64,000 nucleotides of DNA. It comes from Chitinophagaceae bacterium (GTDB lineage: Bacteria > Bacteroidota > Bacteroidia > Chitinophagales > Chitinophagaceae). The position numbers and the translations under genes were made by a program. Location: positions 1-64,000 of the forward strand of contig JAIYAN010000012.1 of the NCBI GenBank assembly GCA_027489035.1. The letters run 5' to 3'. Positions 543 through 10,587 of this stretch are shown piece by piece. The stretch's first letter is position 1. Each line of letters opens with the position of its first letter. The notes under the pieces were generated by a model. That model was not told the origin of the DNA. It saw nothing but the letters and a program-made list of their open reading frames with translations, and searched no databases.

Positions 543-581
543 TTAACACAAACTTAACCTAAAGGTAATAAATAGGTAACT
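543..581 (+). promoter_or_regulatory. Pho-box-like array of 11-bp-spaced half-sites
   Basis: Half-sites begin at 543 (TTAACA), 554 (TTAACC), 565 (GTAATA) and 576 (GTAACT), exactly 11 bp apart. Direct repeats with 11-bp pitch are the signature of PhoB/PhoP-family response regulators, and TTAACA is the half-site known for Bacillus PhoP. The array lies upstream of the TonB receptor start. A similar array precedes the next gene (3625-3652). Binding by a Pho regulator is inference. Confidence 0.4.
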
Positions 582-613
582 TTAAAAACGGACATAAGGA
601 AATTCGATTTGCC

Positions 614-621
614 TACTTTCG
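614..621 (+). promoter_or_regulatory. Candidate Bacteroidota -7 element (TACTTTCG)
   Basis: Matches TAnnTTTG with one substitution and would place the transcript start about 10 nt before the ATG at 636. There is no TTG at the expected -33 position, as expected for an activator-dependent promoter. An exact TACTTTTG at 519-526 is an alternative that would give a leader of about 105 nt. Confidence 0.35.
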
Positions 622-635
622 CAAAAAATTTTAAG

Positions 636-3509
636 ATGCAAAAGCTTATTCTGTTTTTTATTGTATTGATTGGTTTTTCGGGTGTTGCAAAATCACAAAA
701 ATCCAAAATTGAAGGAAAAATTATAAATGCAGCAAACGCTGAGATTTTAATAGGTGCAACTATATCTATAGAGGGAACAAAAAAATCAACACAGTCGGAT
801 CAAAATGGATATTTTTCATTTTCGGGATTAGAAAAAGGGAAATACAAACTGACTGCATCTTATGTTTCCTTTACTTCAAAATCTATCAATGTAGAAATTA
901 CAAAAGAGGGTGAAGTAATTACTAACGATATTGTATTAGATAGAGCTACTGATATGAGTGGCGTTGTAGTAAAATCAACGAGTGGGGGATCAAGAAAACC
1001 AGTAGAAACCGTAAGTTCTTTGTTGATCGCACAAAAAAATAGTGCAAGTGTTAGTGATGGGATTTCTGCGGAAACGATTAAAAGAACGCCGGATAGAAAT
1101 ACAGGTGACATTTTAAAAAGAGTAAGTGGCGCGAGTTTACAAGATGATAAATTTGCTGTAATTAGAGGTTTAAATGATCGTTATAATACTGCTTCTCTAA
1201 ATGGCGCTCCTTTGCCAAGTTCTGAGAGTGACCGTAAAGCATTTGCTTTTGATATTTTTCCGGCCAATATGCTCGATAATTTGGTTATAACAAAAACAGC
1301 CACTCCCGACATGCCTGCAGAATTTGCAGGAGGTCAAATCCTTATCACTACAAAAGGTATTCCATCCGAAAATTTCGAATCATTTTCTATAGGTATGGGA
1401 TTCAATACTCAAAGTACTTTTCGCCAACGCAAATTTAGCGAAATAGGTCAATGGGACTTTTTAGGCATCGATAGTTATAGAAAACTTCCCACTCAATTCC
1501 CAGATATTATAACTTTTAAGAACTTGAGTGTAAATGACAGAACACCTTATTCAAAAAATTTTAATTTAAAAAATTGGGGTTATGAAACCAGAACAGCTTT
1601 ACCAAATACAAATTTTCAGTATGTTTTGGCTAGAAATATCCAAAGAAAAGAAAAAGATTTTTTCGGACTTCTAATGTCTGTTACCTATCAAAAAACACTT
1701 GCCAAAAATGATGGTGACAGAACATTTTTTGCCCCTGAATATGATAATGCACCACAAAGGGTGTTTCAAGAAGAATTCAATACAGTACAAACACTTTTGG
1801 GTGTAATCGGAAATATGTCTTTTAAAATCAATAACAACCATTCGATTAGTTCGAAAAACATATTTAGCATCAACGCTGACGATCGTGTAATAACTCGTGA
1901 TGGATTAAACGATATCATAAATGAGTCTAACCAGTATTTTAAATCGTATGCACTTTGGTTTACCTCCAACCGGATTTTCTCTTCTCAATTAATTGGTGAA
2001 CATTATATTCCTGCTTCAAAATTAAAAATCAATTGGGTTGCTTCTATCTCAGATATCAAGAGAGAAGTTCCAGCATTGAGGAGAATGGCATTTGATAGCA
2101 CTGGAGGTTTAACTGGGTTTCAAGCAAATCTATTTAACACAGCCCCTGTAGACAATGATATCACCGCCGGTTTAACTTTTTATTCAAAAAATAAGGAAGT
2201 TTCTCACAATGCTAAAATAGATTTATCTAGAAATTTTAAATTCAATAAAGATCATCAAATCAATGTAAAGTTTGGCGGTTATTATCAAATGAGAGATAGA
2301 GAATTCAATCCAAGACTACTTGCTTTTTGCCCCTTCGATATCAACACATTTAATACTTCGATATTAACTGTAAGTCCAAAAACAATCTTTCAGAAAAAAT
2401 ATATGGGTAATTTGGGAGGTGGAAAAACTGGTTTAATTTTAAAAGACATCACTGAGATTAGAGATTTGTACACCGCGGGAACTGAACTTTACGCATATTA
2501 TGGCATGTTTGACCAGAGACTTGGTAAAAAGTTGAGAATGATTTACGGGGCAAGGGTTGAGCATTTTCACCAAACACTGAACGCAGAATTCAATCAGTTT
2601 ACACCCGTTAGAATTAATACAAGAAAAACAGATATTCTTCCATCTGCTAATTTCGTGTATTCTATTAACACCAAACAAAATCTTAGATTATCGTATTCAA
2701 AAACACTTAACAGACCAGAATTTAGAGAATTGGCGCCATTTTTATTTAGAGATTATACCATTAGATACTCTGTTTTTGGAGATACTTCATTAAGAAGAGC
2801 AACTATTGATAATTTTGATTTTAGATATGAGTTTTATCCTGGAAAAGCGCAACTTATCACCGGCTCATTGTTCTACAAAAAATTTGTTGATCCTATCGAA
2901 TTGATTTCAACCAATCAAGATAGAACACTTGCTTATAAAAACACGCCATCTGCAACATTATTGGGAGCTGAATTTGAATTCAGAACTAAGGTTGGTAGCT
3001 TATTTGAAACAGGCGCTTCTTCAATTTGGAATAAGTTAACTGTTTATGGAAATTTAAGCATCATCAAATCGGATGTAAAACTTAATGTAATTGATACAAA
3101 CAATTATTATTACAAGCAAGGACGTGTTATGCAAGGTCAATCTCCCTATGTATTAAATGGAGGCGTTACCTATCAAGATGATGAAAAAAATATTTCTTCC
3201 ACTTTGTCATTCAATAGATATGGACAAAGAATTTTCCTTGCAAGTAATGGAGATGCAACACAAAGTGGGCTTTTAATTGAACCTAATTTGTGGGAAAATG
3301 GAAGAACACAAATTGATTTTCAATTTACAAAATCATTCCCTAAAAAAAATATAGACATTAAGTTAAACGTAAAAGATATATTGGCGCAACAATTGGTATT
3401 TTTTGAAGATAACAACAACAATAAAAAATATGACAAAGGGGTTGATCCTAAAAGGTCTTCTCTAAATTTTGGTCGTGTAATTTCTTTTACAATTTCTCAT
3501 AAATTCTAA
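636..3509 (+). CDS. TonB-dependent receptor with carboxypeptidase-like regulatory domain
   Basis: Outer-membrane active transporter, 957 aa. Residues 1-21 form a signal peptide. About 25-105 is the beta-sandwich CarboxypepD_reg-like domain typical of Bacteroidota receptors. About 130-240 is the plug domain (VIRGLNDRYN, PDMPAEFAGG). The rest is the 22-stranded barrel, ending in the aromatic C-terminus ISHKF needed for BAM insertion. I chose ATG 636 rather than the TTG at 609, because nine residues before the signal peptide make no sense and a -7-like box sits between the two. The substrate cannot be read from sequence. There is no SusD partner, so it is not a standard glycan system. The neighbour is a giant T9SS protein with a similar Pho-box-like upstream array, which suggests co-regulation, possibly in phosphate acquisition (inference). 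Confidence 0.93.
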   Translation: MQKLILFFIVLIGFSGVAKSQKSKIEGKIINAANAEILIGATISIEGTKKSTQSDQNGYFSFSGLEKGKYKLTASYVSFTSKSINVEITKEGEVITNDIVLDRATDMSGVVVKSTSGGSRKPVETVSSLLIAQKNSASVSDGISAETIKRTPDRNTGDILKRVSGASLQDDKFAVIRGLNDRYNTASLNGAPLPSSESDRKAFAFDIFPANMLDNLVITKTATPDMPAEFAGGQILITTKGIPSENFESFSIGMGFNTQSTFRQRKFSEIGQWDFLGIDSYRKLPTQFPDIITFKNLSVNDRTPYSKNFNLKNWGYETRTALPNTNFQYVLARNIQRKEKDFFGLLMSVTYQKTLAKNDGDRTFFAPEYDNAPQRVFQEEFNTVQTLLGVIGNMSFKINNNHSISSKNIFSINADDRVITRDGLNDIINESNQYFKSYALWFTSNRIFSSQLIGEHYIPASKLKINWVASISDIKREVPALRRMAFDSTGGLTGFQANLFNTAPVDNDITAGLTFYSKNKEVSHNAKIDLSRNFKFNKDHQINVKFGGYYQMRDREFNPRLLAFCPFDINTFNTSILTVSPKTIFQKKYMGNLGGGKTGLILKDITEIRDLYTAGTELYAYYGMFDQRLGKKLRMIYGARVEHFHQTLNAEFNQFTPVRINTRKTDILPSANFVYSINTKQNLRLSYSKTLNRPEFRELAPFLFRDYTIRYSVFGDTSLRRATIDNFDFRYEFYPGKAQLITGSLFYKKFVDPIELISTNQDRTLAYKNTPSATLLGAEFEFRTKVGSLFETGASSIWNKLTVYGNLSIIKSDVKLNVIDTNNYYYKQGRVMQGQSPYVLNGGVTYQDDEKNISSTLSFNRYGQRIFLASNGDATQSGLLIEPNLWENGRTQIDFQFTKSFPKKNIDIKLNVKDILAQQLVFFEDNNNNKKYDKGVDPKRSSLNFGRVISFTISHKF

Positions 3510-3530
3510 ATTTATTTATAATCAAATCAT

Positions 3531-3566
3531 CATTAAAAAAGGCAGGGTTTCCTGCCTTTTTTAATG
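3531..3566 (+). terminator. Intrinsic terminator after the TonB receptor
   Basis: Perfect 16-bp stem (3531-3546 with 3551-3566), GGCAGG core, 4-nt loop GTTT and a T6 tract. It is symmetric enough to be bidirectional. It separates the receptor from the T9SS gene, so the latter needs its own promoter. Confidence 0.9.
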
Positions 3567-3593
3567 TACATAAATTATGATTTTTCAAAAATG

Positions 3594-3652
3594 TACAATT
3601 TGGTTACAATTTGGTAATCTTTACTTAACATGTCATTAATGTTTTCTTAACA
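3594..3652 (+). promoter_or_regulatory. Phased direct repeats upstream of the T9SS gene
   Basis: Two adjacent perfect 11-bp copies of TACAATTTGGT (3594-3604, 3605-3615) are followed by TTAACA (3625), TTAATG (3636) and TTAACA (3647), again at 11-bp pitch. The arrangement resembles PhoB/PhoP boxes and mirrors that at 543-581. A TA-rich box (TACAATTTG, 3654-3662) follows directly and could act as the -7 region. The assignment to Pho control is inference. Confidence 0.4.
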
Positions 3653-3692
3653 TTACAATTTGAGATTTGCGTTAAACAAAAATCAAAACAAA

Positions 3693-6600
3693 ATGAAAAA
3701 AATTATTACGTTGCTTACCATGTTGTTCGTTCTTTCGACAACACAAGCACAAAACCCCTTCTTCGAGGTGGTAAACTACCGTGGAGCTTTTGCTCCTGCT
3801 CCGGCTAGTCCATGGACTAGTGGCTGGACAAATTTTGATCCACAGAATACTGTGTATCCTGCTGTAACAGACACTGTGTCTGCAAATATTACAGTAAACA
3901 CAACTTGGACAACTGGCAAAACTTATTTGCTTAGAGGTCCTATTTTTGTAAAGAATGGTGCAATCTTGACCATTCAGCCTGGTGTTGTAATTAAAGGTGA
4001 TGCTAGCGTGGCACAAACATCTCTAATTATTACCAAAGGATCTAAAATCAATGCGGTTGGTACTTCTTCAAACCCAATCGTATTTACATCAAGCAAAGAC
4101 ACTGGTCGTGTAGTGGGAGATTGGGGGGGTATAATCATGTTGGGTAAAGCTTCATTAAACAGAGCAGGTGGAGTAGCTAATATCGAAGGTCTTGCTACAT
4201 CTGATGACACACAATATGGTGGTGGAACAACTCCGGATGATAACGACAACTCAGGTAACTTGAAATATGTCCGCATTGAATTTGGCGGCTACATTTTTGC
4301 AACAAATCAAGAGATTAATGGCTTGACAATGGGTTCAGTAGGTAGAAATACCATCATTGATTTCGTACAAACTTCTTTCATCAATGATGATGCGTTTGAG
4401 TGGTTCGGTGGTACTGTAAACTGTTCTCACCTTGTTGCTTTCCGTTGCGTTGATGATGATTTTGATACTGATTTCGGTTATTCTGGATCTGTTCAATATG
4501 CTTTAGGTGTTCGTGATCCAAATTTATCAGACCAGGCGGGAGAATCAGAAGGATTTGAGTCTGATAATGATGGAACTAGTTCTACAAATACGCCATTTAC
4601 TTCAGCGGTGTTCTCAAACGTAACTTGGATTGGTGCTTACAGAGGTACTGTAGGAACAGCTGCTCCAAGTGGAACTTTTAAATTCCGTCGCGCACTACGT
4701 ATTCGTAGAAACTCTCGTTTGAAAGTGTTGAATTCCATCTTCACAGATGCACCTTATGGTGTGTTTATCGATGGTACTTTAAATAGAAACAATTTACAAA
4801 CTGGAAATGGTGTGTTTAAAAACAACATCATCGCTGGCTGTTTCCGTGCTGTTGAGCCAGGATCTACTTCAGGATTAACTGATTCATTATTTAATAATTC
4901 AATTTGGAATAATGATTCATTGGTTTCTACAACTGGCTTGTTAGAATCTCCTTATAGCTACACTGCAGGTGATTATCGTCCAGCTTCTGGATCACCAGCA
5001 TTATCTGATGTAAACTTTACTGACGCTGCTTTTAATAATCGTAAAATCATCGTTTCAGCTGCTTCTTCTATAAGAGAAGTATCATATCGTGGTGCTTTCG
5101 CTCCATCTCCGTCTGTTATGTGGACTGAAGGATGGTGCGAGTGGAATCCACAAACAAGGATTTATCCTGCAGTTACAGATACTATTTCTGGAAACATCAC
5201 AACAAACACTACTTGGACTTCTAACAAGACTTATTTGTTGAATGGTATTGTTTATGTAAATGCTGGTGTTACTTTAACTATCCAACCAGGTACTGTAATA
5301 AGAGGTAATGCAGCTGTATCAGGTGGTACTGCTTTGGTAATTACTAAAAATGCAAAAATTATTGCTCAAGGAACTGCTGAAGCGCCAATCGTATTTACTT
5401 CAAGTAAAGATACTGGTGCTCGCGTAACAGGAGATTGGGGCGGTTTGATTTTATTGGGAAGAGCGGCTATAAACCGTGCTGGTGGAGTTGCTAATATCGA
5501 AGGTATAGCTACAAGCACAGCCACTGAATATGGCGGTGGAGCAAGCCCTAACGATAATGACAACTCTGGTATTGTGAGTTTTGTACGTATTGAATATGGT
5601 GGATACATTTTTGCAACGAATCAAGAAATTAACGGTTTAACCATGGGCGGTGTTGGACGTGGAACACAAATAGATCACGTGCAGGTTTCTTACATCAATG
5701 ACGATGCATTTGAGTGGTTCGGTGGGGCTGTTAACTGTTCTTACTTAGTTGCTTACCGTTGTGTGGATGACAATTGGGATGCTGATTTTGGTTATTCTGG
5801 TTCAGTTCAGTTCGCTTTGGGTGTTCGTGATCCAAATTTATCAGATCAGGCTGGTGAGTCAGAAGGATTTGAGACTGATAATGATGGAACAGGTTCTACA
5901 AACACGCCTTTCACTAGTGGTTTGTTTACGAATGTAACTGAAATAGGTCCTTACAGAGGTACAGTAGGAACTTCCGCTCCTTCAGGTACATTTAAGTTCA
6001 GAAGAGCTGCTCGTATCCGCAGAAACAGTCGTTTGAAAATATTCAACTCTATCTTTACTGATTATCCTTATGGTGTATTTGTTGATGGAGCATCTAACCG
6101 TGCAAATCTTCAAACTGGCAATGGTAAATTTAAAAATAACTTAATTGCTGGTATGTTCCGTGCTACTGAACCAGGAACTGCAACTGCATTAGTTGATTCA
6201 ATTTTTAATTCTGCTATCTGGAAAAATGATTCATTAGCTACAACAGCAAATGTGTTGACTACTCCTTACAATTATTTTGCTCCTGATTATCGTCCAGGTT
6301 CTAATCCATTATCAACAACAGGTGCTGCATTTACTGATACAGCATTCAATGGATTAATCGTTCCATGTGATGAGGTTAACGCTGCTGGTGTAATCACTGG
6401 TGCTTCTAACATTTCAGGTTGTACAAATCCTGTAACTTACAGCATTCCTGCAATTGCAAATGCTTCTTCTTACACTTGGACTGTTCCAACAGGTGCAACA
6501 ATTGTATCTGGACAAGGAACTAGAACAATCACTGTTAATTTCGCTTCTACTTTAACAGCTACATTCACTGGAACAATTACAGTTGTAGGTAAAAACGATT

Positions 6601-8595: not shown

Positions 8596-8600
8596 CAAGC

Positions 8601-8995
8601 CCCCTTCCCCACCCCTTCCCCCGAAAGGTGAAGGGAGTTTGATATCGTACTGTTGAAAATGCATAAAACGGAAAATGCTTCCAACCTTAAACCCTTAAAC
8701 TATTAAACTAGCGAAGCGATTTAAACATTTTTTGACACGAAGGTTTATGAAACACAAAGGCACGAAGACGCAAAGGCACAAAGATTTTTGTTTCACGCAA
8801 AGCACGCAAAGGAGCAAAGACGCGAAGGTTTTTGAAACACGAAGGCACGAAGACGCAAAGGCACTAAGATTTTTTAAAAACGAAGTTGCTAATAAATGGA
8901 AAATGCATCCAACCTTAAACCATTAAACTATTAAACCAGCATAGCGCATTGAACTTCATAAACGTCTTAAACCTCATAGACCTCTTGAACCTCTT
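8601..8995. repeat. Intergenic repeat cluster (C-rich hairpin, TTAAAC and ACGAAGGC families)
   Basis: No gene. 8601-8637 is a C-rich hairpin (CCCTTC at 8613-8618 with GAAGGG at 8630-8635). 8690-8726 is a TTAAACCCTTAAAC unit ending AGCGAAGCGATTTAAAC, found inverted at 14430-14465. 8732-8872 repeats CACGAAGGCACGAAGACGCAAAGG-type strings several times. 8908-9000 is another TTAAAC unit running into CATAAAC/AACCTC strings. A 64-codon frame through this region encodes only the repeat and is not a gene. Confidence 0.7.
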
Positions 8996-9271
8996 TTACC
9001 TCAATTTCCTATCCAAATAAAACGTTCCAAATGGAAGAAATGACAATAAAACAGCTAAACAAAACCAAGTGAATTTTCTCTTTTCTTCGAAGGAATAAAT
9101 GGTACAAAAAACTATAAAAAGGACAAAAAGAACGCCATGCATCATCCCGAATAATTTAACCGGTTCGGGCATGTTAGCCAAGTATTTTAATGGCATTGCT
9201 ATAAATAGGAGTATTAAAAAGGAAATCCCTTCGGCTAAAGCAATGTATCGGAATGTTTTTAGGATATTCAT
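8996..9271 (-). CDS. DUF3817 family small membrane protein
   Basis: 91 aa, predicted to form three transmembrane helices. The N-terminus (residues 1-20) has the FRYIALAEGISFLILL segment typical of DUF3817 proteins, followed by MHGVLFVLF and a short C-terminal helix ending in charged residues. Family members are small integral membrane proteins of unknown role. It stands alone between repeat blocks and has no clear operon partner. mqnC lies 194 bp upstream on the same strand, with repeats between. Confidence 0.8.
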   Translation of the reverse strand: MNILKTFRYIALAEGISFLILLFIAMPLKYLANMPEPVKLFGMMHGVLFVLFIVFCTIYSFEEKRKFTWFCLAVLLSFLPFGTFYLDRKLR

Positions 9272-9353
9272 GTTTTAAGCTTTGATAACTTGATATTGGA
9301 TGCTTGATAAAAGGCTGTTCCAAATTGGATGCTTCAAACAACAAACAACAAAC

Positions 9354-9464
9354 TTTTGTGCGGTTTGAATATTTTCAACCCCTACGAAAAACCCCAACCT
9401 TTTGAACTCATTGAACCTTTTGAACTTCATAAACCTCATAAACCTCATAAACCTCATAAACCTC
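9354..9464. repeat. GGTTGAATATTTTCAACC palindrome plus CATAAACCT tandem repeats
   Basis: 9354-9390 is a degenerate copy of a 36-bp near-palindrome (core TTGAATATTTTCAACCCC), also found at 37470-37500 and 39721-39757. It is followed by AACCTTTTGAAC strings and, at 9426-9464, about four tandem 9-bp units TCATAAACC directly abutting the mqnC stop codon. A 78-codon frame here translates to repeated FMR and is rejected as a gene. Confidence 0.75.
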
Positions 9465-9465
9465 T

Positions 9466-10587
9466 CTAATAATTCACCACCTGCTCTTCCATAACCGGCA
9501 TGTCGCGCCAACCGTATTGTTGGTTTCTCAATTGTGGTTCGAATCCTGCTTCTCTGATCGCATCTTGAATGGTTACACTTGTAAATCGATGAGGCGCTCC
9601 TGCTGCACTTACTACATTCTCTTCAATCATAATGCTTCCAAAATCATTTGCGCCAGCATTCAAACAAATTTGCGCTACTTGTTTGCCAACAGTTAACCAA
9701 CTTGCCTGTATGTTTTTTACATTTGGCAACATAATTCTACTCATGGCAATCATGCGAATATATTCTTCAGGTGTAGTAAGATTTTGAACGCCACGAATTT
9801 TAGTAAGTAGCGTGTCTACATCCTGGAAAGTCCAAGGGATGAACGCTAAAAATCCTTTTACATGTTCTGGTTTACGACTTTGAACTTCTCTGATTTTTAC
9901 CAAATGCTCAAATCTTTCTGTTATCGTTTCTACATGTCCAAACATCATCGTAGCCGATGTAGTAATGTCTAATTTATGACACTCATGCATGATGTCTAAC
10001 CATTCTTGCGCACCACATTTTCCTTTACTGATTAATCGTCTAACCCTGTCTGTTAGTATCTCCGCACCTGCACCTGGCAAACTATCCATACCGGCTTCTT
10101 TCAATGCCATCAACACTTCGCGGTGTGTACTTTTTTCTAGTTTGGTGATGTGTGCAATTTCTGGCGGACCAAGGGTGTGTAATTTAATATTGGGGTAAAG
10201 CGATTTTAATTCTTTAAACAAATTGACATAAAACGATAATCCTAATTCTGGATGATGTCCGCCTTGAAGCAACAATTGATCGCCACCGTATTTGATGGTT
10301 TCTTCTATTTTTTGCTTGTAGGTTTCAATATCAGTGATATATGCATCCGCATGTCCGGGGATTCTGTAAAAGTTACAAAACTTACAATTGGCAAGACAAA
10401 CATTTGTTGTGTTTACGTTTCTATCGATTTGCCAGGTTACTTTGCCATGAGGAACTTGTTTTTTACGCAATTCATCAGCAACAAACATCAACTCTGTTAA
10501 TGGTGCGTTTTCAAATAAATAAACACCTTCTTCCACAGTAAGAAATTCGAAATTTATAGCTCTTTCTAGTATTTGTTGATAATCCAT
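9466..10587 (-). CDS. mqnC: Cyclic dehypoxanthinyl futalosine synthase (MqnC)
   Basis: Radical SAM enzyme that converts dehypoxanthine futalosine into the cyclic form in the futalosine route to menaquinone; cytosolic. The 373-aa length is normal for the family. The 4Fe-4S/SAM cysteines are C64, C68 and C71 (CLANCKFC). Other family motifs are LLQGGHHPELG, TLGPPEIAH, PGAGAEIL and TMMFGHVET. The product feeds the menaquinol used by the alternative complex III encoded at 22.6 kb. No other mqn gene is in the window, so the pathway is dispersed. Confidence 0.95.
   Translation of the reverse strand: MDYQQILERAINFEFLTVEEGVYLFENAPLTELMFVADELRKKQVPHGKVTWQIDRNVNTTNVCLANCKFCNFYRIPGHADAYITDIETYKQKIEETIKYGGDQLLLQGGHHPELGLSFYVNLFKELKSLYPNIKLHTLGPPEIAHITKLEKSTHREVLMALKEAGMDSLPGAGAEILTDRVRRLISKGKCGAQEWLDIMHECHKLDITTSATMMFGHVETITERFEHLVKIREVQSRKPEHVKGFLAFIPWTFQDVDTLLTKIRGVQNLTTPEEYIRMIAMSRIMLPNVKNIQASWLTVGKQVAQICLNAGANDFGSIMIEENVVSAAGAPHRFTSVTIQDAIREAGFEPQLRNQQYGWRDMPVMEEQVVNY

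Follow-up and report, generated by a model that had tools for sequence, protein, structure and literature searches.

Within a 64,000-nt stretch (hereafter the window) of the 3.04-Mb genome of a Chitinophagaceae bacterium (G000), two arrays of 11-bp direct repeats lie upstream of a gene for a TonB-dependent receptor and, beside it, a gene for a large beta-helix surface protein, and both arrays are real rather than products of chance. Because the repeats resemble 11-base sites of phosphate-starvation control and relatives of the pair are often found beside phosphate genes, the receptor and the surface protein are probably a phosphate-scavenging module. As a whole, the reading that PhoB-type operators switch on a receptor together with a ligand-capturing surface protein is one we consider likely.

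The array unit has the consensus [GT]TAACATTnn[CG] and a pitch of 11. A first-pass annotation of the window had placed half-sites TTAACA, TTAACC, GTAATA and GTAACT at 543, 554, 565 and 576, ahead of the receptor gene, and TTAACA, TTAATG and TTAACA at 3625, 3636 and 3647, ahead of the surface-protein gene; every one of these positions was verified in the sequence. It had also listed a tandem 11-bp repeat at 3594-3615, which is present but is not a separate element, being in register with the second array and forming its beginning. That array consists of six in-register copies, TGTACAATTTG, GTTACAATTTG, GTAATCTTTAC, TTAACATGTCA, TTAATGTTTTC and TTAACATTACA (3592-3657), the first of which is weak (1.0 bit). 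A weak fifth copy of the receptor array lies at 532-542. Scored with the weight matrix, the receptor array reaches 28.6 and the six-copy array 38.5, values attained by none of 200 shuffles in either case. Runs of three [GT]TAA[CT] units at pitch 11 start at just four positions in the 64 kb (543, 554, 3614 and 3625), all of them within the two arrays, and the window holds no such three-unit run at pitches 7-10 or 12-17; in 100 trinucleotide-Markov sequences, pitch-11 runs averaged 0.04 with a maximum of 1. In the sister species (G017), 28 of 33 bases are kept in copies 4-6 of the second array and the five changes all fall outside the TTAAY cores. Pho boxes of Escherichia coli PhoB, Bacillus PhoP and cyanobacterial SphR are direct repeats of 11-bp pitch, as are the window arrays, and TTAACA and TTAACC half-sites occur in PhoP and SphR sites. 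Unlike those boxes, the arrays described here run to as many as 6-7 units, have the unit given above and keep a fixed phase to the Bacteroidota promoter element TAnnTTTG.

The 11-bp pitch is kept in relatives, a condition that the first-pass annotation had set for its reading. Among 29 relative loci holding the best matches to the receptor, 25 have more than 200 bases before the match, and in 22 of these 25 the related receptor is preceded by an array whose score was not equalled in 200 Markov shuffles. We also assembled 80 named loci, found among the matches listed when genome contigs were searched with the beta-helix alignment. In these loci, 72 beta-helix genes had a median array score of 17.1 in their upstream regions, and 32 of them reached 18 or above; for 357 other genes the median was 6.5, and 20 reached that mark (rank test, p about 1e-24). 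Seven of those 20 high-scoring other genes are PHO4 phosphate transporters.

The arrays are also held in helical phase with the promoter. The flavobacterial −7 box, TAnnTTTG, is reported to sit at −12 to −5 (PMC9723704), so that an array ending 8 nt before the TTTG would end near −17 and cover the −33 region. Taking arrays that score at least 18 as strong and seeking TTTG within 60 nt of the array end, we found distances of mostly 8, 19 or 30 nt and once 52. In the first set (the receptor relatives, with both window arrays included), 22 of 23 strong arrays have a TTTG, and 20 of these 22 show a distance of 8 modulo 11. The named set comprised 170 promoters, belonging to genes for beta-helix, receptor, OprP, Na/Pi, PlcP-like and PhoB-like proteins; 40 of its 48 strong arrays have a TTTG, and 29 of the 40 share that phase. 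The chance of a given phase is 1/11, and related loci are not independent. These counts take TTTGC ahead of TTTG. The phase is robust to the rule used: admitting the first TTTG only gives 17/22 and 29/40, and counting every TTTG gives 21/28 and 31/49, for the first and named sets respectively. At the window's beta-helix promoter, TTTGC stands at offset 8 from the array and a second TTTG at offset 1; transcription of the surface-protein gene is predicted to start near 3674, which would place the array over the −35/−33 element in the manner of a Pho box. Strong in-phase arrays (36.1 and 47.0; L257, L260) were also seen before the receptor gene in metagenome-assembled genomes (MAGs) labelled Ignavibacteriaceae and Chlorobiota.

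Phosphate genes recur around relatives of the pair. At least one is present in 39 of the 80 named loci (a tally without matched control loci) and in 25 of the 51 that exceed 14 kb; by locus, these are PhoB-like (17), PHO4 (13), OprP (8), Pst (5), Na/Pi (5), PhoU (4) and PlcP-like (1). Of the known Pho genes expected to carry the boxes, some pstS, porin-pst, PHO4, porin-Na/Pi and phoB-like genes do so in relatives, the PhoX genes examined do not, and none does convincingly in the window's own genome. In a genome labelled as the same genus (G015), an array and pstS-pstC-pstA-pstB-phoU come next after the genes for the receptor and a beta-helix lipoprotein; beyond these, on the opposite strand, lie genes for a kinase resembling PhoR and for a PhoB-like regulator. 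Its pstS matches TIGR00975 at 379.8 bits, pstC, pstA, pstB and phoU are all above cut-off, and the pstS array (L084/L108) scores 26.7, with TTTGC at offset 19 by inspection. In Pontibacter diazotrophicus (L247) an in-phase array scoring 36.0 precedes a Porin_O_P gene that is followed, after 217 bases, by pstS (TIGR02136, 319 bits, above cut-off), pstC, pstA, pstB and phoU, and at L157 an array stands before a Porin_O_P gene and then a Na/Pi cotransporter with a PhoU domain. Genome G031 has arrays before its phoB-like gene (19.9), beta-helix gene (29.0) and receptor gene (26.4); the phoB-like gene of L158 has an array, and 7 of 13 PHO4 transporters have scores of at least 18. Arrays also precede genes encoding 433-449 aa, either upstream of the receptor (L162, L168, L169) or elsewhere (L152, L171); those of L168 and L169 match Porin_O_P, and those of L152 and L162 have no Pfam match. 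Others precede metallophosphatase-glycosyltransferase pairs resembling the PlcP lipid-remodelling pair (L154, L164, L165), and putative Pho boxes have been described in plcP gene clusters (PMC4796936). Beyond the phylum's own loci, an Alteromonas macleodii plasmid carries phoB-phoR-PstS-like-oxygenase-beta-helix-receptor-DUF3450-ExbB-ExbB-ExbD-TonB in one row (L296:1149-16975), and Indioceanicola has beta-helix, receptor and type II secretion system (T2SS) genes together.

Two further gene arrangements were noted around the pair. In MAGs labelled Latescibacterota (L259, L261) and Opitutaceae (L245), the pst genes share one cluster with the receptor and beta-helix genes, and no clear 11-bp array accompanies them. 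In G018 and G022, genes resembling those of phosphonate degradation lie upstream of the receptor/beta-helix pair (L118:557-4273, L121:4258-7967); TIGR03276 falls slightly below cut-off, TIGR03351 is above it in one and TIGR03364 in both.

The surface protein is composed of two beta-helix domains that are 70-71% identical, PKD_6 repeats and a type A C-terminal sorting domain of the type IX secretion system (T9SS; Por_Secre_tail PF18962, 44.2 bits, residues 1539-1617 of P0002). By eye, its N-terminus has no lipobox cysteine. Among 81 relative proteins classified by regular expression, 55 have a lipobox, 8 a T9SS motif, 18 neither and none both. Of 148 genomes sampled from the phylum, 101 contain the beta-helix domain (E of 1e-20 or less), and beta-helix sequence lies within the receptor flanks at 28 of the 29 relative loci. 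As in SusCD and PusCD systems, a TonB receptor is encoded alongside a surface partner; the window pair differs in that the surface protein matches neither SusD-type family (PF07980, PF14322).

Such a module is known in outline from published work on Caulobacter and Flavobacterium johnsoniae. In Caulobacter, phosphate starvation leads to production of the surface lipoprotein ElpS, a proposed partner of the TonB receptor Cc0171, with which it co-occurs in genomes (PMC2996285); TonB receptors under PhoB control are also reported in that organism (PMC11208175). The likeness to the window pair lies in this genomic pairing and, further, in the surroundings of elpS, which adjoins T2SS genes just as a relative of the window domain adjoins receptor and T2SS genes at L297. 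ElpS is a lipoprotein released with T2SS help, whereas in the window protein two beta-helix domains are combined with a PKD stalk and a T9SS tail. In F. johnsoniae, the TonB receptor Fjoh_0545 and the lipoprotein FII, Fjoh_0546, an IPR011050 surface protein (PUSIV, beside phoBR), form a similar pair in the PhoBR operon, strongly induced on phosphate depletion (fold-change entries, read as log2, of 8.02 and 9.91), and FI-FIII of this species are described as related to the Caulobacter surface lipoprotein (PMC8115612). Fjoh_0546 differs from the window protein in its lipoprotein anchor. No operator is described in that paper, whose main text lacks the terms 'Pho box', 'binding site' and 'promoter'. 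A search of the full-text literature, mostly without subscription papers, returned no Bacteroidota Pho box of this form with its phase rule. Within the reach of these searches, the duplicated form with its T9SS anchor is likewise new, as is the spread of the beta-helix domain.

The first-pass annotation had read the pair as a phosphate-starvation uptake module, and the conserved pitch and the boxes before Pho genes in relatives lend support to that reading; published data on the phosphate response of similar pairs in F. johnsoniae and Caulobacter agree with it. PhoB is the presumed binder and a phosphorus-bearing compound the presumed ligand. Under phosphate starvation, an OmpR-family PhoB, for which the regulator at C20 is the genome's own candidate, would occupy the 11-bp units one after another in head-to-tail order and cover the −33 region, the helical phase between array and −7 box would let the bound protein contact RNA polymerase, and the receptor and the surface protein would both be switched on. 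The surface protein, pictured as two beta-helix domains with an invariant set of acidic residues, raised on a PKD stalk and held by a T9SS anchor, may then catch or process a phosphorus-bearing ligand, perhaps with metal ions as bridges, and deliver it to the TonB receptor. That PhoB regulates the pair seems to us very probable, and that the surface protein captures ligand for the receptor, instead of playing an enzymatic or accessory role, an evenly balanced call.

Several observations count against this account. The receptor relatives and the window supplied the training set of the weight matrix and were also the first loci scored with it; the tally of phosphate-bearing loci has no matched controls to set beside it. 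Of the 72 named beta-helix genes, 40 score below 18, as do all but 3 of 19 PhoB-like genes in the named loci. PstS loci are mixed (L084 26.7, L079 17.0, L078 13.5, L080 9.7), and at L081-L083, where scores are 5.9-7.7, the proteins fall under the PstS cut-off. The first-pass suggestion that phoX might carry the boxes was not borne out: none of 12 distinct PhoX genes with 300 bases upstream has an array (maximum 12.0), and the regulon is therefore non-uniform. The window's receptor promoter misses the conserved phase by 1-2 nt, the nearest TTTGC lying at 21 and TACTTTCG being one base off. Kinship of the window protein to Fjoh_0546 and ElpS rests on context and not on sequence, and neither of the two is among the 80 named loci. 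Finally, no other Pho gene of the window's own genome has a convincing array; its phoB-like gene scores 9.1, with 13 of 200 shuffles as high, the PhoB-like regulator itself reaches 207 against a cut-off of 296.2 for TIGR02154 and 199.1 against 270 for NF053854, and the kinase at C20 is under NCBIfam cut-offs.

The same genome has no Pst: searches found no PstB above cut-off. There was no PhoX match either, and the PHO4 gene scores 3.5, a value matched by 191 of 200 shuffles. TIGR02154 and NF053854 are nonetheless the two best models for its PhoB-like regulator, which is 71% identical to that of G015, the next best protein in the genome reaching 35%. Scanning the 3.04 Mb with a three-copy consensus (up to 3 mismatches) returned 2 matches, both in the second window array, and 1 for the reversed-pattern control. 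A plainer TTAAC pattern (up to 2 mismatches) gave 19 matches, including both arrays, and 78 for the reversed control; because the control exceeds the matches, the single 1-mismatch match at 3625 alone is notable. A weak 11-bp array was also seen at G000:C7:20195-20232, before a gene for a 2031-aa protein with Ig_7 and fn3 domains.

Three other explanations were weighed. The Pho operator may be real and the surface protein an enzyme (a phosphatase, nuclease or glycan-active beta-helix) or an accessory, with the receptor importing a freed metal or sugar. We regard this as possible, though clearly short of an even chance: the predicted beta-helix fold is common to polygalacturonases, epimerases and lyases, and ElpS secretion accompanies raised alkaline phosphatase activity (PMC2996285), but the beta-helix part of the window protein matches no Pfam family, and the adjacency of beta-helix and receptor genes on one strand in 69 of the 80 named loci argues for a joint task without naming it. 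Alternatively, the arrays could bind another OmpR-family regulator, responding to envelope stress or a metal signal, the phosphate neighborhood being a partial overlap. Direct repeats are common to several regulators of that family, and both the bare PhoX promoters and the sub-threshold PhoB-like protein of the window's genome would fit. Against this, the pair's neighboring regulator is PhoB-like: in 17 of the 80 named loci it is at least 45% identical to PhoB-like reference proteins, and TIGR02154 (PhoB) is the best model for all three regulators tested. Arrays also precede pstS, porin-pst, PHO4 and porin-Na/Pi genes, and we hold this explanation to be improbable. A chance origin of the repeats, or a trait general to A+T-rich promoters in the phylum, is scarcely credible given the pitch and phase tests, the conservation in relatives, the sister-species footprint and the low scores at 357 other genes, even though loose patterns match often and reversed controls outnumber matches in two loose-pattern scans.

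Returning to the phosphate-scavenging reading, we tentatively extend it to most Bacteroidota, at somewhat less than even confidence: a PhoB-controlled TonB route for a phosphorus-bearing ligand may pair a beta-helix capture protein bearing 12 invariant acidic residues with its own receptor, under an 11-bp operator whose phase to the −7 box is fixed from Bacteroidota to the MAGs labelled Ignavibacteriaceae and Chlorobiota; in some lineages T9SS would have replaced the lipid anchor and the capture domain would have been duplicated. A concrete operator sequence and spacing rule are thereby offered for the phosphate regulator of the phylum, a widespread and unexplained surface protein/receptor pair is tied to phosphate supply, and what such TonB receptors import in phosphate starvation becomes a directly testable question. 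Coordinates are collected in Table 1.

Table 1. Features of the receptor/surface-protein locus and the PhoB-like regulator of the same genome
Feature	Position	Strand	Remarks
11-bp direct-repeat array, 4 clear copies	543..586	+	upstream of TonB receptor gene
Candidate −7 box region, receptor promoter	608..621	+	putative; TTTGC 608-612 or TACTTTCG 614-621
TonB-dependent receptor gene	636..3509	+	start taken at ATG 636; CarboxypepD_reg-like domain, plug, barrel
11-bp direct-repeat array, 6 in-register copies	3592..3657	+	upstream of beta-helix/T9SS gene
Candidate −7 box GAGATTTG	3662..3669	+	putative; one mismatch to TAnnTTTG; TTTG at conserved offset 8
Surface protein gene, 1,608 residues	3693..8519	+	start ATG 3693
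Beta-helix domain 1	3750..5069	+	12 acidic residues invariant in 24/24 aligned rows
Beta-helix domain 2	5073..6374	+	70-71% identical to domain 1
PhoB-like regulator	G000:C20:276316-276981		71% identical to that of G015

Downstream of the surface-protein gene (8600-9470) we noted dispersed intergenic repeats: CACGAAGACGCAAAGGCAC recurs exactly at 8761, 8846 and 17909, AACCTTAAACCATTAAAC is exact at 8911 and 49119, and runs of AACCTCATAAACCTC also follow the gene.

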